A stretch of DNA of 33,870 bases. It comes from Spirochaetota bacterium. Its GTDB lineage: Bacteria; Spirochaetota; Leptospiria; Turneriellales; Turneriellaceae. Below the pieces are notes generated by a model. It searched no databases, had not been told where the DNA came from, and was given only the letters and a program-made list of their open reading frames with translations. Numbering within the stretch: position 1 is the stretch's first letter; the number at the start of each line of letters is the position of its first letter. Shown piece after piece: positions 5,256 through 14,393 of this stretch. The position numbers and the translations under genes were made by a program. The DNA lies in the NCBI GenBank assembly GCA_018240245.1, contig JAFEGD010000123.1, positions 1 through 33,870 on the forward strand, in the 5' to 3' direction.

Positions 5256-5906
5256 ATGAGCAAGGTAAAAGTCGCCGCATTCGGCATCTCTCTCGACGGT
5301 TTTGGCGCAGGAGCAAATCAAAGTTTAGAAAATCCGTTAGGCGTGCGCGGGCCTGAGCTGATGCAATGGGTTTTCCCCACCCAATATTTTCAGCAGATGC
5401 ACGGCGATAGCGCAAAGGGTGGCACGACGGGAATCGATAACGATTATGCGGTGCGCGGTTTTGAGAATATCGGCGCATGGATTTTGGGACGCAATATGTT
5501 TGGGCCTATTCGGGGAAGTTGGCCCAATGACGATTGGAAAGGCTGGTGGGGGGAAAATCCGCCGTACCATGTGCCAATCTTTGTACTCACGCACCATGCT
5601 CGCAAACCGCTTGAAATGGCGGGCAACAACACGTTCTACTTTGTCACCGACGGTATCGAGTCGGCGCTCAAACAAGCCAAGGCCGCTGCGGGCGGTAAAG
5701 ACGTGCGCATCGGCGGCGGAGTGCAGACGGTGCGGCAATATTTACAGAAGGGGCTCGTCGACGAAATTCACTTTGCGCACTCGCCGGTTTACTTAGGCGA
5801 GGGAGAAAATCTCACGGCGGGTCTCAATCTACCAAAAATGGGATTTCAAATCGCGGAAAAAAAACAGGGCGAAGGTGCGCTCCACATTATGCTGAAAAAA
5901 GGCTAG
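5256..5906 (+). CDS. Dihydrofolate-reductase-like (RibD C-terminal domain) family protein
   Basis: This 216-residue protein resembles the small DHFR/RibD-C superfamily members such as YyaP/YwjB. The N-terminal strand VAAFGISLDGFGAG matches their opening, W-ILGRNMFGP is the nucleotide-site region, and GGGVQTVRQYLQKGLVDEIHFAHSP is the characteristic C-terminal block. These proteins probably reduce a small molecule with NADPH, but most have no proven substrate and should not be equated with true FolA. An AGGAG site lies 6 nt ahead of ATG 5256. It is the first gene of the accessory run and is followed after 3 nt by the ArsR-type regulator. Confidence 0.85.
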   Translation: MSKVKVAAFGISLDGFGAGANQSLENPLGVRGPELMQWVFPTQYFQQMHGDSAKGGTTGIDNDYAVRGFENIGAWILGRNMFGPIRGSWPNDDWKGWWGENPPYHVPIFVLTHHARKPLEMAGNNTFYFVTDGIESALKQAKAAAGGKDVRIGGGVQTVRQYLQKGLVDEIHFAHSPVYLGEGENLTAGLNLPKMGFQIAEKKQGEGALHIMLKKG

Positions 5907-5909
5907 TCC

Positions 5910-6323
5910 GTGACGCATTCGACGACCACTACCGATCACTTGAGCCTCACTTTCGCGGCGCTCGCCGACCCGACGCGGCGCGCGATGCTCGCGCGTTTGG
6001 GCAAAGGGACGGCGACCGTCGGCGAGCTTGCGAAACCGTTTTCGCTGAGCGGTCCGGCGATCACTAAGCACTTAAAGGTACTCGAAAAAGCCGGGCTCAT
6101 CACGCGCGAAAAAGAAGCGCAATGGCGCCGCTGCCGCATCGAAGCACAGCGGCTAAGAGAGGCGAACGAATATATCGAAAAATATCGCCAATTCTGGGAA
6201 GCGAGTTTCGATCGATTAGAAGTTTATTTGAAGAAGCTGCAAGCGAGTACCTCGTCTCCTACCCCTCTCTTTCAGGAGAGGGGTGGCGAAGCCGGGGTGA
6301 GGCAAAAAGGAGAAAAAAAATGA
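5910..6323 (+). CDS. ArsR/SdpR-type winged-helix regulator
   Basis: This 137-residue protein begins at GTG 5910 and carries a typical ArsR winged helix at about residues 10-95: the opening LTFAALADPTRRAMLARL, the recognition helix LSGPAITKHLKVLEKAGLI and the wing ITREKEAQWRRCRI. Only one cysteine is present and no CxC metal site is visible, so it is closer to the SdpR-like, non-metal branch that commonly precedes SRPBCC genes. Its stop overlaps the start of the next SRPBCC gene by ATGA, which supports translational coupling. The C-terminal 25 residues are encoded by a repeat-like inverted sequence and look like an appended tail. Confidence 0.9.
   Translation: MTHSTTTTDHLSLTFAALADPTRRAMLARLGKGTATVGELAKPFSLSGPAITKHLKVLEKAGLITREKEAQWRRCRIEAQRLREANEYIEKYRQFWEASFDRLEVYLKKLQASTSSPTPLFQERGGEAGVRQKGEKK
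6256..6302. repeat. Inverted repeat element inside the regulator's 3' end
   Basis: CCCCTCTC (6262-6269) and GAGAGGGG (6276-6283) form a stem, followed by GCCGGGGTGAGG. The wording resembles short dispersed intergenic repeats seen in many bacterial genomes. It is read through in frame and supplies most of the protein's tail. Confidence 0.5.
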
Positions 6324-6736
6324 AAACAACAAAAATTACGGTCAGTGCAACCGTCAATGCACCCATCGCAAAAGTCTGGGGGTTTTGGAACAAACCAGAG
6401 CACATCACAAAATGGAACGCAGCGCACGAGTCATGGCACTGCCCGAGCGCGAAGAACGACCTCAAGGTCGGCGGCAAGCTACAGTCGCGTATGGAGGCGA
6501 AGGACGGTAGCTTTGGCTTCGATTTTGAAGGGACCTACAACGAGGTTGTCGAGCACAAACGCATTGCCTACACGATTGCCGACGGCCGTAAGGTTGAAAC
6601 CGATTTCAGCGTAGTAGACGGTAAAACCAAAATCGCAACGGTATTCGAAGCCGAGGCGCAAAACTCTGTCGAAATGCAACAGGGCGGCTGGCAGGCGATT
6701 CTGGATAATTTCAAAAAATACGCCGAAGCAAACTAA
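6320..6736 (+). CDS. SRPBCC (AHSA1-type) protein
   Basis: This 138-residue protein has the SRPBCC/AHSA1 fold signature: an opening ITVSATVNAPIAKVWGFWNKPEHITKWN, a central GGKLQSRM-EAKDGS-FGFDFEGTYNEV and a C-terminal helix GGWQAILDNFKKY. SRPBCC domains form a deep hydrophobic cavity and bind lipids or small molecules; AHSA1 relatives in bacteria mostly lack an assigned function. ATG 6320 is preferred because it has AAAGGAG 7 nt upstream and overlaps the regulator's TGA. Longer readings of the frame begin inside the regulator. Being coupled to an ArsR-type gene is a recurrent arrangement for this family. Confidence 0.9.
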   Translation: MKTTKITVSATVNAPIAKVWGFWNKPEHITKWNAAHESWHCPSAKNDLKVGGKLQSRMEAKDGSFGFDFEGTYNEVVEHKRIAYTIADGRKVETDFSVVDGKTKIATVFEAEAQNSVEMQQGGWQAILDNFKKYAEAN

Positions 6737-6764
6737 AACGACAATTCAGTAAAAGGAGAAAACC

Positions 6765-7250
6765 ATGAAATTCGAAGTCGATAAAGCGAACAAAACAATC
6801 GATATCAGTAGGGATTTCGAGGCCAGCCAGAGCAATGTCTGGCATGCGTTTACGACAAAAGAAGGACTCGATGCGTGGTGGGCACCGGCGCCATGGAAAT
6901 CGAAAACCACGCAGATGGATTTTGTCGTCGGCGGCAAACGAATCTATGCCATGGTTGGGCCTGCGGGCGAAGAGCATTGGGCGGTTCAGATTTTTACGGC
7001 AATTTCTGCGCAAGATAGTTTTGGCTTCGAAGATGCCTTCTCAGACAAAGACGGCATCGTCAATGCGGCAATGCCGAGCATGCACTGGAGTCTAAATTTT
7101 TCGAGTTCAGGCGCCCAGTGTACGGTCGCCATATTGATCAAGGCTCAATCGCTCGAGGCTTTGGAGCAAATTATCCAAATGGGTTTCAAAGAAGGGTTCA
7201 CGATGACCTTGGATGCGCTCGCGGCGCAGCTCTCGAGTTCAAAAAAATAA
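6765..7250 (+). CDS. SRPBCC (AHSA1-type) protein
   Basis: This 161-residue second SRPBCC protein reads IDISRDFEASQSNVWHAFTTKEGLDAWWAPAP near its start, the AHSA1 helix-strand opening with the WW pair. It ends with MGFKEGFTMTLDALAAQL, the long C-terminal helix that closes the ligand cavity. A ribosome binding site AAGGAG precedes ATG 6765 by 7 nt. It lies 28 nt after the first SRPBCC gene and 9 nt before a VOC gene, so one transcript is likely. The ligand is unknown. Confidence 0.9.
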   Translation: MKFEVDKANKTIDISRDFEASQSNVWHAFTTKEGLDAWWAPAPWKSKTTQMDFVVGGKRIYAMVGPAGEEHWAVQIFTAISAQDSFGFEDAFSDKDGIVNAAMPSMHWSLNFSSSGAQCTVAILIKAQSLEALEQIIQMGFKEGFTMTLDALAAQLSSSKK

Positions 7251-7259
7251 AAGACTAAT

Positions 7260-7829
7260 ATGCCAAAGAGAAAGGACACAACAAAATCTAAAAAAAAGAC
7301 CGAGCGCAATAATATGCACGGAGCGGCGCGCGCACCAAAATCCAAAACTGGAGCAGTGTCCGTACGATACGTCGGTTCAAAAGCGCATTCGATCACTCCC
7401 TTTCTGATGTTCAACGCTAATCCCGAAGAGGCCGCGCAATTTTATGTGAAGGTCTTCAAGAATTCGAAAATCTTAAGTTCGAGCCCAATGCAGGCGGATT
7501 TCATACTGAACGGACAAAGATTTTTCTCGTATAATGGCGGCGATCACCCCAATTTCAAATTTAACTGGGGCGTGTCATTCATGATTAGCGTCGAGACGCA
7601 GAAAGAAGTCGACTACTATTGGAATGCCCTCACCGCCGACGGCGGCAAAGAGAGTATGTGCGGCTGGGTGCAAGATAAATACGGCCTCTCGTGGCAGGTG
7701 ACGCCGAATATATTACTCCAACTTGTTTCGCATAAAGATAAGACAATCGCCGATCGTGCGCAACAGGCGATGCTGAAAATGAAAAAAATCGACATCGCTG
7801 CACTGAGAGCGGCCACGGAGGCAAAATGA
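7260..7829 (+). CDS. VOC family protein (PhnB / 3-demethylubiquinone-methyltransferase-like)
   Basis: This 189-residue protein carries the PhnB-like VOC domain from about residue 43 on: ITPFLMFNANPEEAAQFYVKVFKNSKI, then FSYNGG, VSFMISVETQKEVDYYWNAL and CGWVQDKYGLSWQVTP. VOC domains of this type are homodimeric and may bind a small ligand or metal. The first 40 residues are rich in lysine, arginine and serine and are not part of the fold; an internal ATG at residue 19 (7314) could be an alternative start. The stop overlaps the following ATG (ATGA at 7826). Confidence 0.88.
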   Translation: MPKRKDTTKSKKKTERNNMHGAARAPKSKTGAVSVRYVGSKAHSITPFLMFNANPEEAAQFYVKVFKNSKILSSSPMQADFILNGQRFFSYNGGDHPNFKFNWGVSFMISVETQKEVDYYWNALTADGGKESMCGWVQDKYGLSWQVTPNILLQLVSHKDKTIADRAQQAMLKMKKIDIAALRAATEAK

Positions 7830-7957
7830 ACAATCTCGAATTAAAACTCGAACGTGTCTTATACGCTACGGTAAAGCAGCACGAGGAAATGGGTTTTTAC
7901 GACGGTTGGGGTAAGGCGACAGAGCAGCTCGTCGAATATACAAAAACACTTAGATAG
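7826..7957 (+). pseudogene. Internally deleted SRPBCC mini-gene (43 codons)
   Basis: The ATG at 7826 overlaps the TGA of the VOC gene. The first 15 residues (MNNLELKLERVLYAT) look like the opening strand of an AHSA1-type protein. The last 28, containing EEMGFYDGWGKATEQLVEY, look like its C-terminal helix. About 110 residues that should lie between are absent, and the reading frame is preserved across the junction near 7868-7875. The product cannot form the SRPBCC cavity. I read it as a deletion remnant that is still in frame and translationally coupled. A true small protein is possible but less likely. Confidence 0.7.
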
Positions 7958-7962
7958 CGAAG

Positions 7963-8394
7963 ATGGCAGAAGTAACACTGACTCGCCAGCTCGACGCCCC
8001 TGTCGACAAAGTCTGGAACGCCCTCACGGCTAAAGACGAGTTGAAAAAATGGTATCTCGAGCTCGCCGATTTTCGCGCCGAAGTCGGCTTCCGATTTCAA
8101 TTTTCTGGCGGCGCCTCGCCAGAAAAACAATACATCCACCACTGCGAAATTAAAGAAGTTGTGCCGGGCAAAAAACTCGTCTATAGTTGGCGCTTCGAGG
8201 GTTATACAGGCGACTCGCTCGTCACATTCGAGCTCGTCGCTCAGGGCGAGAAAACGTTGCTCAAATTTTCGCACACCGGCATCGACACCTTTGCGGCCGA
8301 CAATCCCGATTTCGCGACAAAGAATTTTGCCGAGGGTTGGAACCATATCATACTTACGTCGTTACCGAATTATGTCGAGAGGAAATCCGCATGA
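7963..8394 (+). CDS. SRPBCC (AHSA1-type) protein
   Basis: This 143-residue SRPBCC protein begins LTRQLDAPVDKVWNALTAKDELKKWY, continues with FQFSGG-EIKEVVPGKKLVYSWRFEGY and ends with FAEGWNHIILTSLPNYV, matching a complete AHSA1 domain. It starts 5 nt after the stop of the deleted mini-gene and overlaps the next gene by ATGA at 8391. Ligand and role are unknown. The intact length argues that this copy is functional. Confidence 0.9.
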   Translation: MAEVTLTRQLDAPVDKVWNALTAKDELKKWYLELADFRAEVGFRFQFSGGASPEKQYIHHCEIKEVVPGKKLVYSWRFEGYTGDSLVTFELVAQGEKTLLKFSHTGIDTFAADNPDFATKNFAEGWNHIILTSLPNYVERKSA

Positions 8395-9335
8395 CGCCGA
8401 TAAAAGCACTCACCATCACGCGCATCTTCGACGCCCCGCGCCGTCTCATCTTCGACGCCTGGGTCGAGGTCAAACATTTCAAAGAGTGGTGGATGCCGCG
8501 TGGCTTCACGAACCCTGTATGCGAATTTCAGGGGAGCAAAATGCCGGGACGTGCCGAGGTGGGTTCAAAAATACGAATTGTCTCGCACCACCTCGATTTC
8601 GGCAACCTACCGATGGCAGGCACATTCGAAGAAGTAACTCCCATCGAGCGTATCGTTTTTACCAGCGAGGCGTTTCCCGACGCAAACGGCGTCATGCAAC
8701 TGATTAACCGCAATGTTGTTACCTTCAGCGAAGTCGAAGCCGGCAGAACGCAAGTTGTACTCCATGCGACGGTTCTGCAATCTTTACCCGAACACGCCGC
8801 CGCGCTTGCCGGTATGCAGCAGGGTTGGAGTGAAACTCTCGATCGGTTAGGCGAACGTGTCGAAGATACATCCGACCGCGAGATGAATATCAGTCGTCTC
8901 GTCGACGCCCCGCGCGAGCTCGTGTGGAAGGTTTGGACAGAACCCGAACGTATAAAAGAATGGTGGGGGCCAAACGGCTTTACCAGCACGATTCACGCTT
9001 ATAATCTCATGCCGGGCGGCAAATGGCATTTAACCATGCACGGCCCCGATGGCACAGATTTTCCGAACCACATTCGTTTCATCGAGATTATCCCGAACGA
9101 ACGACTCATTTACGACCATGCGGCGATAGACCACGACGCGCCGCAACACGACGCCGATGCGCAATTTCGCTCGTTCGTCTATTTCGCCGACGAAGGCGGC
9201 AAGACGCGCGTCACGATGAGAGGCGTTTTTAGAACCGTCGCATACAAGAATTTGGTCGTCGAAAAATACGGCGCACTCGAAGGGCAACGGCAACATATCG
9301 CGCGTATGGCGGCGTATTTAGCGAAACTGCGATAA
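8391..9335 (+). CDS. Protein with two tandem SRPBCC (AHSA1) domains
   Basis: This 314-residue protein contains two full AHSA1 domains in one chain. Domain 1 (about 1-160) opens ITRIFDAPRRLIFDAWVEVKHFKEWWMPRGF and closes GMQQGWSETLDRL. Domain 2 (about 164-312) opens ISRLVDAPRELVWKVWTEPERIKEWWGPNGF and closes EGQRQHIARMAAYLAKL. Both keep the WW pair and the APR turn. ATG 8391 is used because it overlaps the previous stop and is preceded by GAGAGGA; the frame's longer reading starts inside the upstream gene. The fusion probably arose by loss of a stop between two cassette-like neighbours. Confidence 0.9.
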   Translation: MTPIKALTITRIFDAPRRLIFDAWVEVKHFKEWWMPRGFTNPVCEFQGSKMPGRAEVGSKIRIVSHHLDFGNLPMAGTFEEVTPIERIVFTSEAFPDANGVMQLINRNVVTFSEVEAGRTQVVLHATVLQSLPEHAAALAGMQQGWSETLDRLGERVEDTSDREMNISRLVDAPRELVWKVWTEPERIKEWWGPNGFTSTIHAYNLMPGGKWHLTMHGPDGTDFPNHIRFIEIIPNERLIYDHAAIDHDAPQHDADAQFRSFVYFADEGGKTRVTMRGVFRTVAYKNLVVEKYGALEGQRQHIARMAAYLAKLR

Positions 9336-9337
9336 CC

Positions 9338-9475
9338 ATGATACTGCCAAAAAAAAGAGATCCCCGATTTATTACTATCCGACGCGGTGGCACACTAACT
9401 GACGAAAACCATCATTTGCTCGCACTGTGGGCAGCCGAATGCGCTGAACGCACACGGCCCCGGATGTGGCGATAG
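9338..9475 (+). pseudogene. Truncated putative immunity protein (Imm5-like) N-terminus
   Basis: ATG 9338 opens a 45-codon frame whose residues 8-23 read DPRFITIRRGGTLTDE, followed by HHLLALWAAECAERT. I recognise this as the N-terminal signature of a family annotated as putative immunity protein (Imm5-like domain), which is normally well over 100 residues. The frame stops at 9473 after a nonsense tail. In another frame, 9463-9510 encodes DVAIEQLVAYAKTMR and a stop, which resembles an AHSA1-type C-terminal helix. So the 5' end of one gene appears joined out of frame to the 3' end of another. Confidence 0.6.
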
Positions 9476-9513
9476 AGCAGCTGGTGGCTTATGCGAAAAC
9501 TATGAGGTAGGAT

Positions 9514-9921
9514 TTGAAAACCACAGAGGACACAGAGAGCACAGAGGAAGAGCCTGTAAGAGATCCGCTGACTGAGAAGGTCATTGGATGCGCGATTGAA
9601 GTGCATAAGCGTCTGGGGCCGGGCTTGTTGGAATCTGTGTACGAGCAGGCGATGGTGATAGAGCTTCGCCATCAGAAAATTTCCTGTGAACGCCAAAAAT
9701 TTCTGCCTGCAATCTATCGTGATCAGAATGTCGGTGAATTCAGGATCGATTTGATAGTCGAAAACCAACTCATCATCGAACTGAAGGCCGTTCGCGCCAT
9801 TGAATCGATTTTCACCGCACAGATTCTCACATACATGAAGCTGGGCAATTTCAAGAAGGGATTAATTATCAACTTCAACGTCCCCAAATTAATCGCAGGA
9901 GTAAAACGCTATGTTCTCTAA
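9514..9921 (+). CDS. GxxExxY family protein
   Basis: This 135-residue protein has the hallmark G-x2-E-x2-Y as GLLESVYEQA, preceded by VIGCAIEVHKRLGPG. It also carries the acidic and lysine residues FRIDLIVENQLIIELKAV, which recall PD-(D/E)XK nuclease folds. The family is widespread and its biochemical role is unproven. The start is TTG 9514, with AGGTAGGA upstream. The first residues (KTTEDTESTE) are encoded by the left arm of a 29-bp inverted repeat, and the stop codon lies just before the right arm. It stands apart in style from its neighbours and was probably inserted as a unit. Confidence 0.88.
   Translation: MKTTEDTESTEEEPVRDPLTEKVIGCAIEVHKRLGPGLLESVYEQAMVIELRHQKISCERQKFLPAIYRDQNVGEFRIDLIVENQLIIELKAVRAIESIFTAQILTYMKLGNFKKGLIINFNVPKLIAGVKRYVL
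9519..9547. repeat. Left arm of a perfect 29-bp inverted repeat around the GxxExxY gene
   Basis: The arm starts AACCACAGAGGACAC and is built from CACAGAG units. Its exact reverse complement lies at 9924-9952. It encodes the Thr/Glu-rich N-terminus of the GxxExxY protein. Confidence 0.9.
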
Positions 9922-9923
9922 TA

Positions 9924-9952
9924 CCTCTGTGCTCTCTGTGTCCTCTGTGGTT
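9924..9952. repeat. Right arm of the 29-bp inverted repeat
   Basis: This is the exact reverse complement of 9519-9547, starting 2 nt after the GxxExxY stop codon. The two arms enclose the gene almost exactly, as expected of a small mobile unit. Confidence 0.9.
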
Positions 9953-10004
9953 ACCTGCTCTTTTCAACTTTAATCAATTCTTATAGAAAATAAGGAGAAC
10001 AAAC

Positions 10005-10412
10005 ATGAACAACCAAACACCCACCAAAGCCGCCTTCTGGGGCGGCTGGACAATCAGCGGTCTCGCGATCGCTTTTCTCACCTTCGACGGCACGCTGAAA
10101 TTCTTTCTGCACAAGATGCCGCCCGAGGCGATGGCCGATGCAGCAAAGCTTGCGTACCCGATGGCGATCATGCCGTACCTCGGCGCGACGCTGCTCGTCT
10201 GCGTCTTACTCTATGCGATTCCACGTACGGCGATTCTGGGGGCGATTCTGCTAACGGGATATTTAGGCGGAGCGGTGTCGGCGCATGTGCGCATTCTAAA
10301 CCCGTGGCGAAGCCACATTCTTTTCCCGGTCTACTTCGGCGTATTGATTTGGCTGGGGTTGTATCTACGTATGCCTGCGCTGCGCGCATTTATTCCAATG
10401 AGGAAAATATGA
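10005..10412 (+). CDS. DoxX-like four-helix membrane protein
   Basis: This 135-residue protein is mostly hydrophobic, with four predicted membrane helices at about 10-28, 48-70, 75-92 and 105-122. The opening WTISGLAIAFLTFDGTLKF and the block YPMAIMPYLGATLLVCVLLYAIPRTAILGAILLTGYLGGA match the DoxX-like family (DoxX_2). These small inner-membrane proteins have no settled function and often sit beside SRPBCC, VOC and ArsR-type genes. AAGGAG lies 7 nt before ATG 10005. The stop overlaps the next gene by ATGA. Confidence 0.88.
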   Translation: MNNQTPTKAAFWGGWTISGLAIAFLTFDGTLKFFLHKMPPEAMADAAKLAYPMAIMPYLGATLLVCVLLYAIPRTAILGAILLTGYLGGAVSAHVRILNPWRSHILFPVYFGVLIWLGLYLRMPALRAFIPMRKI

Positions 10413-10690
10413 GACTGAACAGCATTTACCTCAACTTTGCCGGTAATACCGAAGAAGTTTTTCTTTTCTATAAATCGATATTCAAGCGCGAATTCGATTC
10501 ACTCGTGCGCTTTAAAGACATGCCGATGCCGGGCGTCACGCTATCCGAAGCGGACCGCCTGTTCGCGGCACTCTCGGCCGGTGGCGTCGTTGAAATGGCG
10601 ATGGCCGACATGCCATGGGGCGATTACTTTGGCTCGTTCAAAGATAAATTCGGCATCGGCTGGATGATTAGTCTACCGAATAAAAAATAA
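10409..10690 (+). CDS. VOC (PhnB-like) protein with an internal deletion
   Basis: This 93-residue protein has an intact PhnB-like N-terminus (LNFAGNTEEVFLFYKSIFKREF and FKDMPMPGV) and an intact C-terminus (EADRLFAALSAGG, then WGDYFGSFKDKFGIGWM). The middle of the fold, roughly 45 residues that normally lie between these blocks, is missing, and the reading frame is kept across about 10538-10545. Full-length relatives are about 135-150 residues. Without the central strands the VOC barrel cannot close, so the product is probably inactive or dimerises differently. ATG 10409 overlaps the DoxX-like stop. Confidence 0.8.
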   Translation: MRLNSIYLNFAGNTEEVFLFYKSIFKREFDSLVRFKDMPMPGVTLSEADRLFAALSAGGVVEMAMADMPWGDYFGSFKDKFGIGWMISLPNKK

Positions 10691-10702
10691 TCGGAGCACC
10701 CC

Positions 10703-11587
10703 ATGCGATTTAACAAAAATCTGCTTTTGCTGTCGCTCATGGTAGTCGCCATAAGCGGCAATTACTGCAAGCCTGCGAGCGATATTCAACCCACGACCAA
10801 AGGCTTCGCGCCCATCAACGGCATCCAAATGTATTACGAAGTATATGGGGCAAAGGGGGATATCCCCCTGCTCTTGCTGCATGGCGGCGCATCGACGATT
10901 CCATCGACGTTCGGCAAAGCAATACCGCTGTTGGCGAAAACTCATCGCCTGATTGCGTTAGAAGAACAAGCGCATGGCCGCACGAGCGACCGCAATACGC
11001 CGTTGCGATTCGAGACTTCGGCCGACGACGCGGCGGCGCTTTTGAATTATCTCAAGATCGCTAAGGCGGATGTCTTCGGGTTCAGCAACGGCGCGAGTAT
11101 TGCGCTTGAACTCGCAATTCGCCACCCCGCAAAAGTGCGCAAGCTGATATTTGCGTCGTCGCTCACCAAGAAATCGGGCGCGCCGCCGCAGCTATGGAAT
11201 TTCATAGCTCAGGGCGATTTCAACCAAATGCCACAAGCGTTGAAAGACGCCTTTCTCAAAGTCAATCCCAACCCAGCGAAGCTCAAGAATCTCTACGAAA
11301 AGACGCGCGAGCGCATGGTTAATTTCCACGACACCCCGGACGCCGCCGTTAAAGGCATCAAGGCTGAGACCTTGATTCTCACCGGCGACCACGATGTCGC
11401 GACCCTCGAGCATGTGTTAGAACTAACGCGCCTCATTCAGGGTGCGCGACTGATGGTGTTGCCTTACGGACATGGCGACTACATCGGCGAGGTTTCGGCG
11501 ACGCTAAGCGCAATGAAGTCGTGGTCACACGCTACTTCGCCGCGCCGCGGGCGCTCGTATTCGACTGCCACACAAAACCCGAGCTGA
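10703..11587 (+). CDS. Exported alpha/beta hydrolase with a replaced C-terminus
   Basis: The 294-residue product starts with a hydrophobic signal segment (about 6-19) followed by Cys22, a possible but unusual lipobox (GNYC). The hydrolase core is clear: HGG oxyanion region at 60-62, nucleophile S128 in GFSNG, the acid in TGDHD, and the histidine in YGHGDY. It belongs to the general alpha/beta hydrolase fold, and the substrate is unknown. After about residue 266 the family likeness ends. The last 25-30 residues are an out-of-frame reading of the following SRPBCC gene, so the original C-terminus was lost by a deletion near 11490-11510. The catalytic residues survive. Confidence 0.85.
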   Translation: MRFNKNLLLLSLMVVAISGNYCKPASDIQPTTKGFAPINGIQMYYEVYGAKGDIPLLLLHGGASTIPSTFGKAIPLLAKTHRLIALEEQAHGRTSDRNTPLRFETSADDAAALLNYLKIAKADVFGFSNGASIALELAIRHPAKVRKLIFASSLTKKSGAPPQLWNFIAQGDFNQMPQALKDAFLKVNPNPAKLKNLYEKTRERMVNFHDTPDAAVKGIKAETLILTGDHDVATLEHVLELTRLIQGARLMVLPYGHGDYIGEVSATLSAMKSWSHATSPRRGRSYSTATQNPS

Positions 11588-11994
11588 TGCGTCGCTGGCT
11601 CATCGGCCCCGAAGGCATGGTGCTTGAGACCTGCGAGAACGACGTGCGAGTCGGCGGTAAATATCTCTACCTTTATGCCGACGCGAAGGGCAACAAGTCC
11701 GGCGTCTATGGGCATTTTCAAGAAGTGGTTGTGCCTGAGCGATTCGCCAATACCGAGAATTATATCATGGACATAACGACGTTTAATCCGCATGCTCCCG
11801 AAGACCCGAATGCGACGGTCGAATCGCGCACGTTTACCGCCGCAGGTAAAGAGACGCTTTTAACGCACGTGGTTAGATATGCCTCGGCAGAGGTGCGTAA
11901 AATGGCGCTCGAATACGGTGCGATCGACGGCATGGTGGCTTGTTACACAGAACTCGACAAATTATTGTTGATTCAAAACAAGGATAACAAATGA
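11521..11994 (+). CDS. SRPBCC (AHSA1-type) protein, N-terminally truncated
   Basis: The frame encodes VTRYFAAPRALVFDCHTKPELMRRW, then VGGKYLYLY, GVYGHFQEVVVPERF and the C-terminal helix YGAIDGMVACYTELDKLL, a nearly complete AHSA1 domain. Relatives have about 10-20 further residues before VVTR. Here the upstream frame runs back into the hydrolase gene without an ATG. The only start nearby is GTG 11521, inside the hydrolase frame, with no good ribosome binding site. Expression would need internal initiation about 65 nt ahead of the hydrolase stop. It is coupled to the next gene by ATGA at 11991. Confidence 0.78.
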   Translation: MVTRYFAAPRALVFDCHTKPELMRRWLIGPEGMVLETCENDVRVGGKYLYLYADAKGNKSGVYGHFQEVVVPERFANTENYIMDITTFNPHAPEDPNATVESRTFTAAGKETLLTHVVRYASAEVRKMALEYGAIDGMVACYTELDKLLLIQNKDNK

Positions 11995-12527
11995 AAATAG
12001 TCAAGATAATTGCATTGGTGTTATTTCTGATCGTCGGCACCGTTCTCGCGCTCGCCTCGCGGCAACCCGACAGTTTTAGTTATGCACGCTCGACGACGAT
12101 CAAAGCGCATGCCGAAAAAATCTATCCCTATCTCAACGACTTCAAAAAAGGCATGGAATGGGTGACTTATGAAAAACGCGACCCCAACATGAAGCGCAAA
12201 TTTTCGGGCAATGCGACGGGCGTCGGCTCGATTTATGAATTCGACGGTAACAGCGACGTCGGTGCGGGTCGCATGGAAATCGTCGCTGCGGTACCGAACG
12301 AAAAAGTCACACTGAAACTCGCTTTCGTGCGCCCCATGGAAGGCGTCAGCACGGTTGAATACACACTTACCCCGAGCGATGGCGCAACAAAAATGACTTG
12401 GGCGATGTCGGGAAAATCAAACTTTATCGGTAAAATATTTTGCCTGTTTATCAATATGGATAAAATGATAGCCAAAGATTTCGACGAAGGACTCAACACA
12501 TTAAAAAATTTGGCGGAGAAAAAATGA
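11991..12527 (+). CDS. Membrane-anchored SRPBCC / polyketide-cyclase-like protein
   Basis: This 178-residue protein has an N-terminal membrane segment (about 4-23, VKIIALVLFLIVGTVLALA) followed by a polyketide_cyc-type SRPBCC domain. The domain opens STTIKAHAEKIYPYLNDFKKGMEWVTYEKRDP and ends MIAKDFDEGLNTLKNLAEK. This is a different SRPBCC subgroup from the AHSA1 copies upstream. The domain probably sits on the outer face of the inner membrane. Its start overlaps the preceding stop, and its own TGA overlaps the ATG of a VOC mini-gene at 12524. Confidence 0.88.
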   Translation: MKIVKIIALVLFLIVGTVLALASRQPDSFSYARSTTIKAHAEKIYPYLNDFKKGMEWVTYEKRDPNMKRKFSGNATGVGSIYEFDGNSDVGAGRMEIVAAVPNEKVTLKLAFVRPMEGVSTVEYTLTPSDGATKMTWAMSGKSNFIGKIFCLFINMDKMIAKDFDEGLNTLKNLAEKK

Positions 12528-12642
12528 TCGATCGCGCAGACCCCGACGACCATATTATCGAAGCGGTCTGCCACAACCCTGTTTAGCGCTGGGTAAGCGC
12601 ATCTTAAATCATGCGAGCATATTGATTTCGAGATTTTGGTAT
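12515..12642. repeat. Direct repeat copy A
   Basis: About 128 bp are repeated with few differences at 13319-13447. The unit holds a ribosome binding site, a 20-codon VOC mini-gene and a downstream dyad (AAATCA and TGATTT around GCGAGCAT). The two copies enclose the RHH-Doc pair. Confidence 0.85.
12524..12586 (+). pseudogene. VOC mini-gene remnant, copy A (20 codons)
   Basis: The frame reads MIDR joined to ADPDDHIIEAVCHNPV and a TAG stop. The second part is the usual C-terminus of glyoxalase-like VOC proteins (DPDGH-IEAVCH). MID is also a common VOC opening, so this looks like a gene whose middle (over 100 residues) is gone while start and stop remain in frame. GGAG lies 5 nt before the ATG, which overlaps the upstream TGA. 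Confidence 0.65.
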
Positions 12643-12677
12643 ATCGCGCTCCCTGAAAAATAGAGTACATAAAAACA

Positions 12678-12712
12678 TCTTGACAAATCAAGAATAATCA
12701 AGATCATATATT
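12678..12712 (+). promoter_or_regulatory. Promoter/operator of the toxin-antitoxin pair
   Basis: TCTTGA (12678), TCAAGA (12688) and TCAAGA (12698) are three half-sites spaced by exactly 10 bp. The first contains most of a TTGACA -35 (12680-12685). The AT-rich CATATATT just before the start can hold the -10. Helically phased short half-sites suit a ribbon-helix-helix autorepressor. Confidence 0.55.
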
Positions 12713-12925
12713 ATGGCTACAGTAAAATTTGCAACTCTTTTGGAAAAACCGCTAAAAGCAAAACTTTCAGCCTACTCCAAAGAGTCTAACCAATCCATCT
12801 CGGGGATTGTCAACGATGCGCTGGAGCTTTACTTTAAGCAAAAAATGATCCGTTCGAATTTCAAAACGGCGGCAGAACAAGTCATCGCTGAAAATCGGGA
12901 GTTGCTGAATCGATTGGCTAAATAG
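12713..12925 (+). CDS. Ribbon-helix-helix antitoxin
   Basis: This 70-residue protein starts VKFATLLEKPLKAKLSAYSKESNQSISGIVNDALELYF, a ribbon-helix-helix (CopG/Arc-like) DNA-binding domain. The last 25 residues form a charged helix that would wrap the toxin. It is followed after 2 nt by a Doc toxin, so it is read as the antitoxin that neutralises Doc and represses the operon. Doc's classical partner is Phd, which is not of this fold. The start ATG has no clear ribosome binding site and lies directly after the promoter, so a short or absent leader is likely. Base use is more AT-rich than in neighbouring genes. Confidence 0.85.
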   Translation: MATVKFATLLEKPLKAKLSAYSKESNQSISGIVNDALELYFKQKMIRSNFKTAAEQVIAENRELLNRLAK

Positions 12926-12927
12926 TC

Positions 12928-13305
12928 ATGCTACCGATTCAATATGTCACTGTTGAAGAAGTAATTTATCTACACGAACGATTGATCGCCGAATTCGGCG
13001 GTGCCACCGGCGTCAGAGACATGGGGCTTTTAGACAGCGCACTCCATCGTCCGCAGTCGGGTTACTACGAAACTTTGCTCGATCAGGCGGCGGCACTTTT
13101 ACAAAGCTTAGCGCTCAACCACGCTTTCGGCGACGGTAATAAACGGATTGCCCTCTCAGCACCATTTATATTTTTGAGAATGAATGGGGTGACAGTTCGC
13201 TGCACTGCCGCCGAGGGCGAGAATTTTTTAATTCGACAAGTTATCGCAGCAAAAATATCGATTCCAATAATAGCAGATTGGTTGCGGGCACATACAAACA
13301 ATTAA
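12928..13305 (+). CDS. doc: Doc (death-on-curing) family toxin
   Basis: This 125-residue protein carries the Fic/Doc signature HAFGDGNKR at residues 65-73, with H65, D69 and the NKR triplet intact. It opens VTVEEVIYLHERLIAEFGG and GVRDMGLLDSAL, the standard Doc N-terminus. Doc of phage P1 inactivates EF-Tu by phosphorylating it; the same is assumed here from family membership. No inhibitory helix is present in the toxin, so inhibition must come from the antitoxin. The pair is flanked by the two direct repeats. Confidence 0.93.
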   Translation: MLPIQYVTVEEVIYLHERLIAEFGGATGVRDMGLLDSALHRPQSGYYETLLDQAAALLQSLALNHAFGDGNKRIALSAPFIFLRMNGVTVRCTAAEGENFLIRQVIAAKISIPIIADWLRAHTNN

Positions 13306-13318
13306 ATCGGAGATTTAA

Positions 13319-13447
13319 GGAGAAAAAATGATCGATCGCACAGACCCCGACGGCCATAATATCGAAGCGGTCTGCCACGACCCGGTTTAGCGCTGGGACA
13401 GCATACTCTTAAATCATGCGAGCATAATGATTTCGAGAATTTTGTAT
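13319..13447. repeat. Direct repeat copy B
   Basis: This is the second copy of the unit at 12515-12642. Its dyad is perfect: AAATCAT and ATGATTT separated by GCGAGCATA. The copy ends at the start codon of the TfoX_N-YdeI gene. Confidence 0.85.
13328..13390 (+). pseudogene. VOC mini-gene remnant, copy B (20 codons)
   Basis: The frame reads MIDR joined to TDPDGHNIEAVCHDPV and TAG, with AAGGAG 5 nt before the ATG. Compared with copy A it keeps the canonical DPDGH. The same internal deletion is present in both copies, so the deletion came before the duplication. Confidence 0.65.
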
Positions 13448-14393
13448 GGCTTACGACATAAAATTGGCTGATCGAGTGCGCGCTGAGTTGGCTACTCGAA
13501 CGCACCTTCAGGTCGAAGAGAAAAAAATGTTCCGCGGGCTCACCTTTATGGTCAACGGCAAAATGTGCGTCAGCGTCGGCGGTGAAAATTTGATGTGCCG
13601 ATTCGACCCGTCGCGCCAAAGCGAAGTCGAGAAAAAATTAGGTTTTCAGACGATGCGCATGAAGGGACGCATCTACAAGGGCTTTTGCTATGTCGCGCCC
13701 GAAGGATTCAAAACAGCCACGAATTTTCGCTACTGGATAGAACTTTGTCTTGCGTTTAATGTTCAAGCGAAGGCATCGACAAAACTCGCCAACGCAGAGA
13801 AAATTTATTTTGCCGACCGCACGGCACTCCGCACTTGGTTTGTCAAAAACCACACAAAGCTTGAAGCTTTTTGGCTTGTTTACGATAAGACTAAAGACGG
13901 CAAGCGCAGCCTCACCACCGACGACATCGTCGAAGAAAGTCTCTGCTTCGGCTTCATCGACGGCCAGTTACGCAAGGTTTCGGCAACGCAAGCGAGCATT
14001 TATGTCAGCCGCCGCAAGCCGAAAAGCGAATGGTCGAAGCGCAACAAAGACAAAGTTGCTGAATTGACGCACAAGAAACTTATGCACGCTGCTGGACTCG
14101 ACGCCGTCAAACGCGCGCAAGAAAACGGTTCGTGGTCGAAAATCGACGGTTCGGAAAATCATGTGATGCCTGAAGACTTTGCCAAAATCCTCGGTAAAAA
14201 AACGGCTTGGCGTAAACATTTCGAAAGTCTTGCCCCATCTACGCGCAAAATGTTTTTGCACCGTTTGCAATCCGCCAAAACACCGGCGACGCGCGCAAAA
14301 CGGTTAGAGTTTTTGACGCAACTTTTAGAGGTAAAAATGCAACCGTCGGAACTACGCCTTGCGTTCACGAAAGGTGTTATACCGCAGCGATAA
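13446..14393 (+). CDS. TfoX_N domain - YdeI family fusion protein
   Basis: The 315-residue chain joins two families. Residues 1-105 are a TfoX N-terminal-like domain (VEEKKMFRGLTFMVNGKMCVSV, then MKGRIYKGFCYV). Residues about 118-310 are a YdeI-type domain: FADRTALRTWFVKNH, DDIVEESLCFGFIDGQ and YVSRRKPKSEWSKRN, with the long KLMHAAGLDAVKRA helix. Both are usually separate proteins of unclear function in soil and water bacteria, and both tend to neighbour SRPBCC and VOC genes. The start ATG sits at the end of direct repeat B and has no clear ribosome binding site. The gene converges on the minus-strand oxidoreductase, with only 8 nt between. Confidence 0.85.
   Translation: MAYDIKLADRVRAELATRTHLQVEEKKMFRGLTFMVNGKMCVSVGGENLMCRFDPSRQSEVEKKLGFQTMRMKGRIYKGFCYVAPEGFKTATNFRYWIELCLAFNVQAKASTKLANAEKIYFADRTALRTWFVKNHTKLEAFWLVYDKTKDGKRSLTTDDIVEESLCFGFIDGQLRKVSATQASIYVSRRKPKSEWSKRNKDKVAELTHKKLMHAAGLDAVKRAQENGSWSKIDGSENHVMPEDFAKILGKKTAWRKHFESLAPSTRKMFLHRLQSAKTPATRAKRLEFLTQLLEVKMQPSELRLAFTKGVIPQR

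Follow-up and report, generated by a model that had tools for sequence, protein, structure and literature searches.

A putative RHH-Doc toxin-antitoxin operon framed by 128-bp direct repeats in a Spirochaetota genome

Genes and direct repeats at the locus

We analyzed a stretch of 33,870 nucleotides (the window) from the draft genome of a Spirochaetota bacterium (contig JAFEGD010000123.1). In this stretch, direct repeats of 128 bp directly frame a module made of a ribbon-helix-helix (RHH)-like antitoxin gene and a Doc toxin gene, with all features on the forward strand. The left repeat (12515 to 12642) begins in the last codons of an SRPBCC (Polyketide_cyc2) gene (11991 to 12527; PF10604, E = 1e-9). 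The right repeat (13319 to 13447) ends at the start codon of a TfoX_N-OmdA fusion gene (13446 to 14393; PF04993 and PF13376), which follows directly. Across 128 aligned columns, the two copies are identical at 116 positions (90.6%) and differ by 12 mismatches and one 1-nt gap, and their longest identical runs measure 21, 20, and 19 nt. Both contain a GGAGAAAAAATG start, a 20-codon open reading frame, a TAG stop, and an AAATCA..TGATTT dyad. A preliminary description of the sequence had proposed two direct repeats sharing a ribosome binding site, a mini-gene, and a dyad, and our alignment recovered the same coordinates. The repeat may extend upstream into the SRPBCC gene (AACA-ATTAAA..ATTT), although this is no more than suggestive (anchored P = 0.026, local P = 0.17). 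Given that the genome is split into 243 contigs, one could suspect an assembly artefact. However, the 12 differences and the gap between copies make a simple assembler duplication unlikely, and the flanking genes and the toxin-antitoxin (TA) pair all have same-genus homologs; we regard an artefact as very improbable.

When the repeat was searched against its own genome (3.3 Mb, 243 contigs, 93% complete), the second copy was found at E = 1.7e-43 and the next matches were chance-level fragments of 14 to 24 nt. The match at positions 7032 to 7055 of contig C7 lies inside no recognizable VOC gene. This draft genome thus holds two copies only, and we found no copy in 60 relatives ranging from genus to phylum. 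These results rule out a dispersed repeat family and dispose of the concern, raised in the preliminary description, that the repeat might occur at many unrelated loci. A composite transposon was also rejected, as no transposase was recognized among the ORFs examined around the repeats.

Repeats of this kind could also be attC sites, with the TA pair as an integron gene cassette. Their length of 128 bp, their similarity, and their TA cargo do recall superintegron cassettes, and the genome encodes a tyrosine recombinase on contig C101 that is partly similar to an integron integrase. Nevertheless, neither copy contains a GTTRRRY or RYYYAAC core on either strand, the dyad folds no better than shuffled sequences (z = -0.3 to -1.3), and an array is not what two copies in a genome suggest. 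Neither the integrase matches here nor those in any of the 14 control genomes reach the family cut-off. With core motifs absent and folding ordinary, the attC reading is largely refuted, and we give it almost no credence. The recombinase itself (locus L082, 1497 to 2786) has 429 aa and an N-terminal extension, and its gene has a small HTH gene and a murC-like gene as neighbors.

The 20-codon open reading frames lie at positions 12524 to 12586 in the left copy (MIDRADPDDHIIEAVCHNPV) and 13328 to 13390 in the right copy (MIDRTDPDGHNIEAVCHDPV), the latter being nearer to the VOC consensus. Residues 6 to 19 of the mini-gene match the C-terminal residues 117 to 130 (of 131) of the VOC protein 4z04 (E = 8e-4), and in plasmids, tblastn matched the tail regions of genes annotated as VOC. 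The corresponding full-length VOC proteins start with MFDHV.. and end with ..PDGHNIEAVCH.., while the mini-gene consists of start codons and a C-terminal tail and lacks a complete VOC domain. It is therefore best read as a VOC gene that was apparently cut down to its first codons and its tail, with the middle missing. Using a Phyllobacterium VOC protein as query, we found no intact source gene in the same genome; the query did identify one full-length VOC gene on contig C112 of comparison genome G001. Because the deletion point is the same in both copies, either the deletion preceded the duplication or the copies were homogenized. Four of the five codon differences between copies are nonsynonymous (A/T, D/G, I/N, and N/D) and one is synonymous. 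Although the number of differences is small, they give no sign of constraint on the peptide, and a functional mini-protein was rejected on this ground. A second VOC-type (PhnB-like) gene in the window (10415 to 10690) carries an in-frame internal deletion, with 52 codons missing relative to its G001 counterpart (L062, 8038 to 8469). A short GA(A/C)GC(G/C)GAC / GAGGCCGAC repeat marks the ends of that deletion.

The SRPBCC stop codon and the left mini-gene start codon overlap as ATGA, resembling stop-start overlaps elsewhere in the surrounding gene island. SRPBCC homologs in comparison genomes G001 and G002 end at equivalent codons (with a homologous AEK-stop in G001). Since the left repeat starts within the natural 3' end of the SRPBCC gene and the right repeat stops at the start codon of TfoX, the SRPBCC-VOC junction on the left and the VOC-TfoX junction on the right both appear original. 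The ancestral gene order was probably SRPBCC, VOC remnant, and TfoX/OmdA. In G001 and G002, a MATE gene comes directly after the closest SRPBCC homolog; in the window, that gene is found 4.8 kb downstream. The SRPBCC-MATE pair of G001 has an IS200-like Y1 transposase gene (PF01797; L061, 1562 to 1969, contig C252) directly upstream. The TfoX_N and OmdA domains, fused in the window, belong to separate genes on different contigs in G001, and matches to the fusion gene in G002 and G003 cover the OmdA part only. The island as a whole (5256 to 14393) contains RibD-like, ArsR, several AHSA1/COG3832, PhnB, DoxX, and hydrolase genes. In genomes G004, G005, and G006, the region after MnmE has none of the island genes, so the island is variable. 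ArsR-COG3832 appears among the TA-like pairs listed in PMC2701414.

The RHH-Doc operon and its counterpart in the same genus

The interval between the repeats is AT-rich, with a G+C content of 0.433 versus 0.523, which places it in the lowest 1.5% of 676-bp windows. It contains a putative operator, TCTTGA-N14-TCAAGA (12678 to 12703), overlapping a TTGACA promoter element at 12680. This palindrome has one match in the window and none in 100 shuffled sequences. Downstream lie the antitoxin gene (12713 to 12925; 70 aa) and the Doc toxin gene (12928 to 13305; 125 aa). The toxin was assigned by homology to Fic (PF02661, E = 2.8e-13) and DOC_P1 (TIGR01550, E = 3.7e-14), and its intact HAFGDGNKR agrees with the Doc/Fic motif HxFx(D/A)GNK(R). 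Thus, the AT-richer TA pair of the preliminary description is borne out in both composition and toxin identity. The antitoxin reached no family above cut-off in Pfam or NCBIfam. Its AlphaFold model (pLDDT 83) has helices at residues 14 to 25 and 29 to 69, and the best Foldseek matches, all of them weak (E above 1), were mainly RHH proteins (MazE-mt9, CopASO, and CopG). The model hints at an RHH-like fold, and an 87% identical homolog precedes doc in G004. Judging from gene order and homology, the two genes form a putative type II TA system.

We found no relatives of the antitoxin in viral contigs or in a plasmid collection, and wider relatives of Doc were identified at two loci in a collection of genome contigs, one of which is G004 itself. 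This same-genus Spirochaetota MAG encodes the same RHH-Doc pair, with identities of 87% (antitoxin) and 70% (Doc). The operator palindrome is also kept upstream of the G004 homolog, and because the module has its own operator and promoter, conserved in G004, it can be considered self-contained. The two genomes share 76% identity in the core protein YidC, so the TA pairs have diverged about as far as the species. If drift followed duplication, the repeats, which are 9% apart, would be younger than the divergence of the TA pairs. At the DNA level, the pair is absent from the other five same-genus genomes.

The G004 pair occupies a different site, on contig C125, with a recF-like gene on one side and, on the other, a Fic gene accompanied by a short hydrolase-like remnant; an AHSA1 gene that resembles one in the window is close by. 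DNA similarity between the two modules starts at the operator and ceases near the end of doc, and no flanking repeats of the 128-bp kind were found around the G004 pair. Relatives with the TA pair and without repeats were an outcome that the preliminary description had weighed against its own interpretation, and G004 is such a case. Because G004 carries the pair without them, the repeats are not required ends of a mobile unit. The same absence is also what a target duplication predicts. As the G004 module has no repeat and the outer junctions in the window join host genes, the repeat appears to be host target sequence and not part of the module. The Fic-domain gene and the short remnant of G004 (L063, 6580 to 7709) constitute another gene scrap beside this TA family, the remnant being similar to the alpha/beta-hydrolase tail in the window (14 of 27 residues identical). 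On the same contig, beside the AHSA1 gene, an 840-aa protein is encoded by a gene with 144-bp (48-codon) tandem repeats (L063, 8294 to 10816).

Origin of the arrangement

We propose that the RHH-Doc operon was inserted with duplication of approximately 128 bp of its target, a reading to which we assign about an even chance and which is the best supported of those considered. The insertion, its polarity, and its mechanism are all reconstructed from the present arrangement. An autonomous operon with operator and promoter, antitoxin, and toxin would have entered an operon composed of SRPBCC, the internally deleted VOC gene, and TfoX/OmdA, duplicating approximately 128 bp of target in a single event. 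Plausibly, a fragment bearing the TA genes was captured during repair of a staggered break, or through a replication error, with both overhangs being copied; no transposase would be needed for such a route. The operon may then have been kept by its own addictive action, as expected from its family, while the repeats drifted 9% apart and the locus came to behave as a stable chromosomal TA system. Target duplication is favored by repeats that are unique to the locus and made of host-operon sequence, by outer junctions that look undisturbed, by a module that is self-contained and occurs at another site without repeats in G004, by the lack of attC core motifs, and by a published precedent of similar size in restriction-modification (RM) systems. 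Against it, 128 bp is far longer than the target duplications of transposases, and a search of genus relatives for an empty site with one repeat copy found none, the remnant itself being in none of them. The preliminary description had offered either insertion with target duplication or amplification with capture; the first is the better supported, and an empty site that would finally separate the two was not among the genomes examined.

In an alternative order of events, tandem duplication of the VOC remnant came first, and illegitimate recombination subsequently placed the TA pair between the copies or inside them. Such a history fits the coincidence of repeat ends with gene ends and a region that seems prone to rearrangement, as illustrated by the 52-codon deletion in the VOC-type gene at 10415 to 10690. 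Yet it needs two independent events, the second almost exactly at the junction, with just 28 bp and 13 bp on the two sides of the module belonging to neither a repeat nor a gene. We consider it unlikely.

In a third scenario, one homologous crossover within the remnant brought in a circle or fragment from a related strain that bore RHH-Doc and a diverged copy of the VOC remnant. This would account for the direct repeats and, as a difference between donor and host, for their 9% divergence without drift in place, and the TA family is indeed present in another member of the genus. The remnant, however, occurs in no other genome examined, the G004 pair is not linked to it, and the plasmid collection contains no relative of the antitoxin, which leaves this scenario doubtful. 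For the target-duplication insertion that we favor, the same 9% bears on the fate of the module. The preliminary description had suggested that recombination between copies would excise a circle of about 0.8 kb. Efficient RecA-dependent recombination usually requires identical stretches as long as or longer than the runs of at most 21 nt seen here. Because the copies are 9% diverged and share no longer run, ready excision of a circle is unlikely, and the suggestion is not supported as a frequent event.

Comparison with known systems

Chromosomal TA pairs often lack transposases, which makes their route to new sites a matter of interest. If a long duplicated landing site does frame the pair, the kind of movement that has been proposed for RM systems would apply to TA modules as well. 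We found no literature on such long repeats around a type II TA pair in an open-access subset of papers, assessed mostly by title and abstract, which is weak evidence that the pattern is novel for this class. By analogy, minimal RHH-Doc operons might be mobile units that move without a transposase via insertion with long target duplication, the present locus being the scar of one move; we offer this broader idea as speculative. The idea lends itself to a genome-wide test: solitary TA pairs would be examined for long flanking direct repeats made of host sequence, in species whose relatives include an empty site.

Like other chromosomal type II Doc (Fic) systems, the operon has a small gene for a DNA-binding antitoxin immediately before doc, an operator palindrome in its promoter, and an intact Fic motif. 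It differs in that the antitoxin is RHH-like and not Phd, and in its long flanking repeats, which are unusual. The antitoxin also sets it apart from the second doc operon of the same genome (L083, 1696 to 2384, contig C41), where a MazE/AbrB-type antitoxin is found. Like TA cassettes of chromosomal superintegrons, the locus has an entire TA operon, promoter included, lying between similar repeats that are comparable in length. Unlike those cassettes, it has no attC core motifs, no array, and no integron integrase over cut-off.

The closest parallel is with RM systems, whose insertion with long target duplication was reportedly described by Nobusato et al. in 2000. According to PMC3874152 (see also PMC3031569), the target duplications that accompany RM insertion are long and variable, on the order of 100 bp. 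To our knowledge, the mechanism is not established even for RM systems. RM and TA systems are both characterized in PMC2654758 as addictive and apparently mobile. The cargo here is a type II TA pair, and no genome with an empty, single-copy site is known for this locus, in contrast to the RM cases. What the two share is an addictive module without a transposase, flanked by a direct repeat of approximately 100 bp of host target. We therefore view the locus as ordinary TA biology with an instructive scar, of a pattern already known for RM systems.
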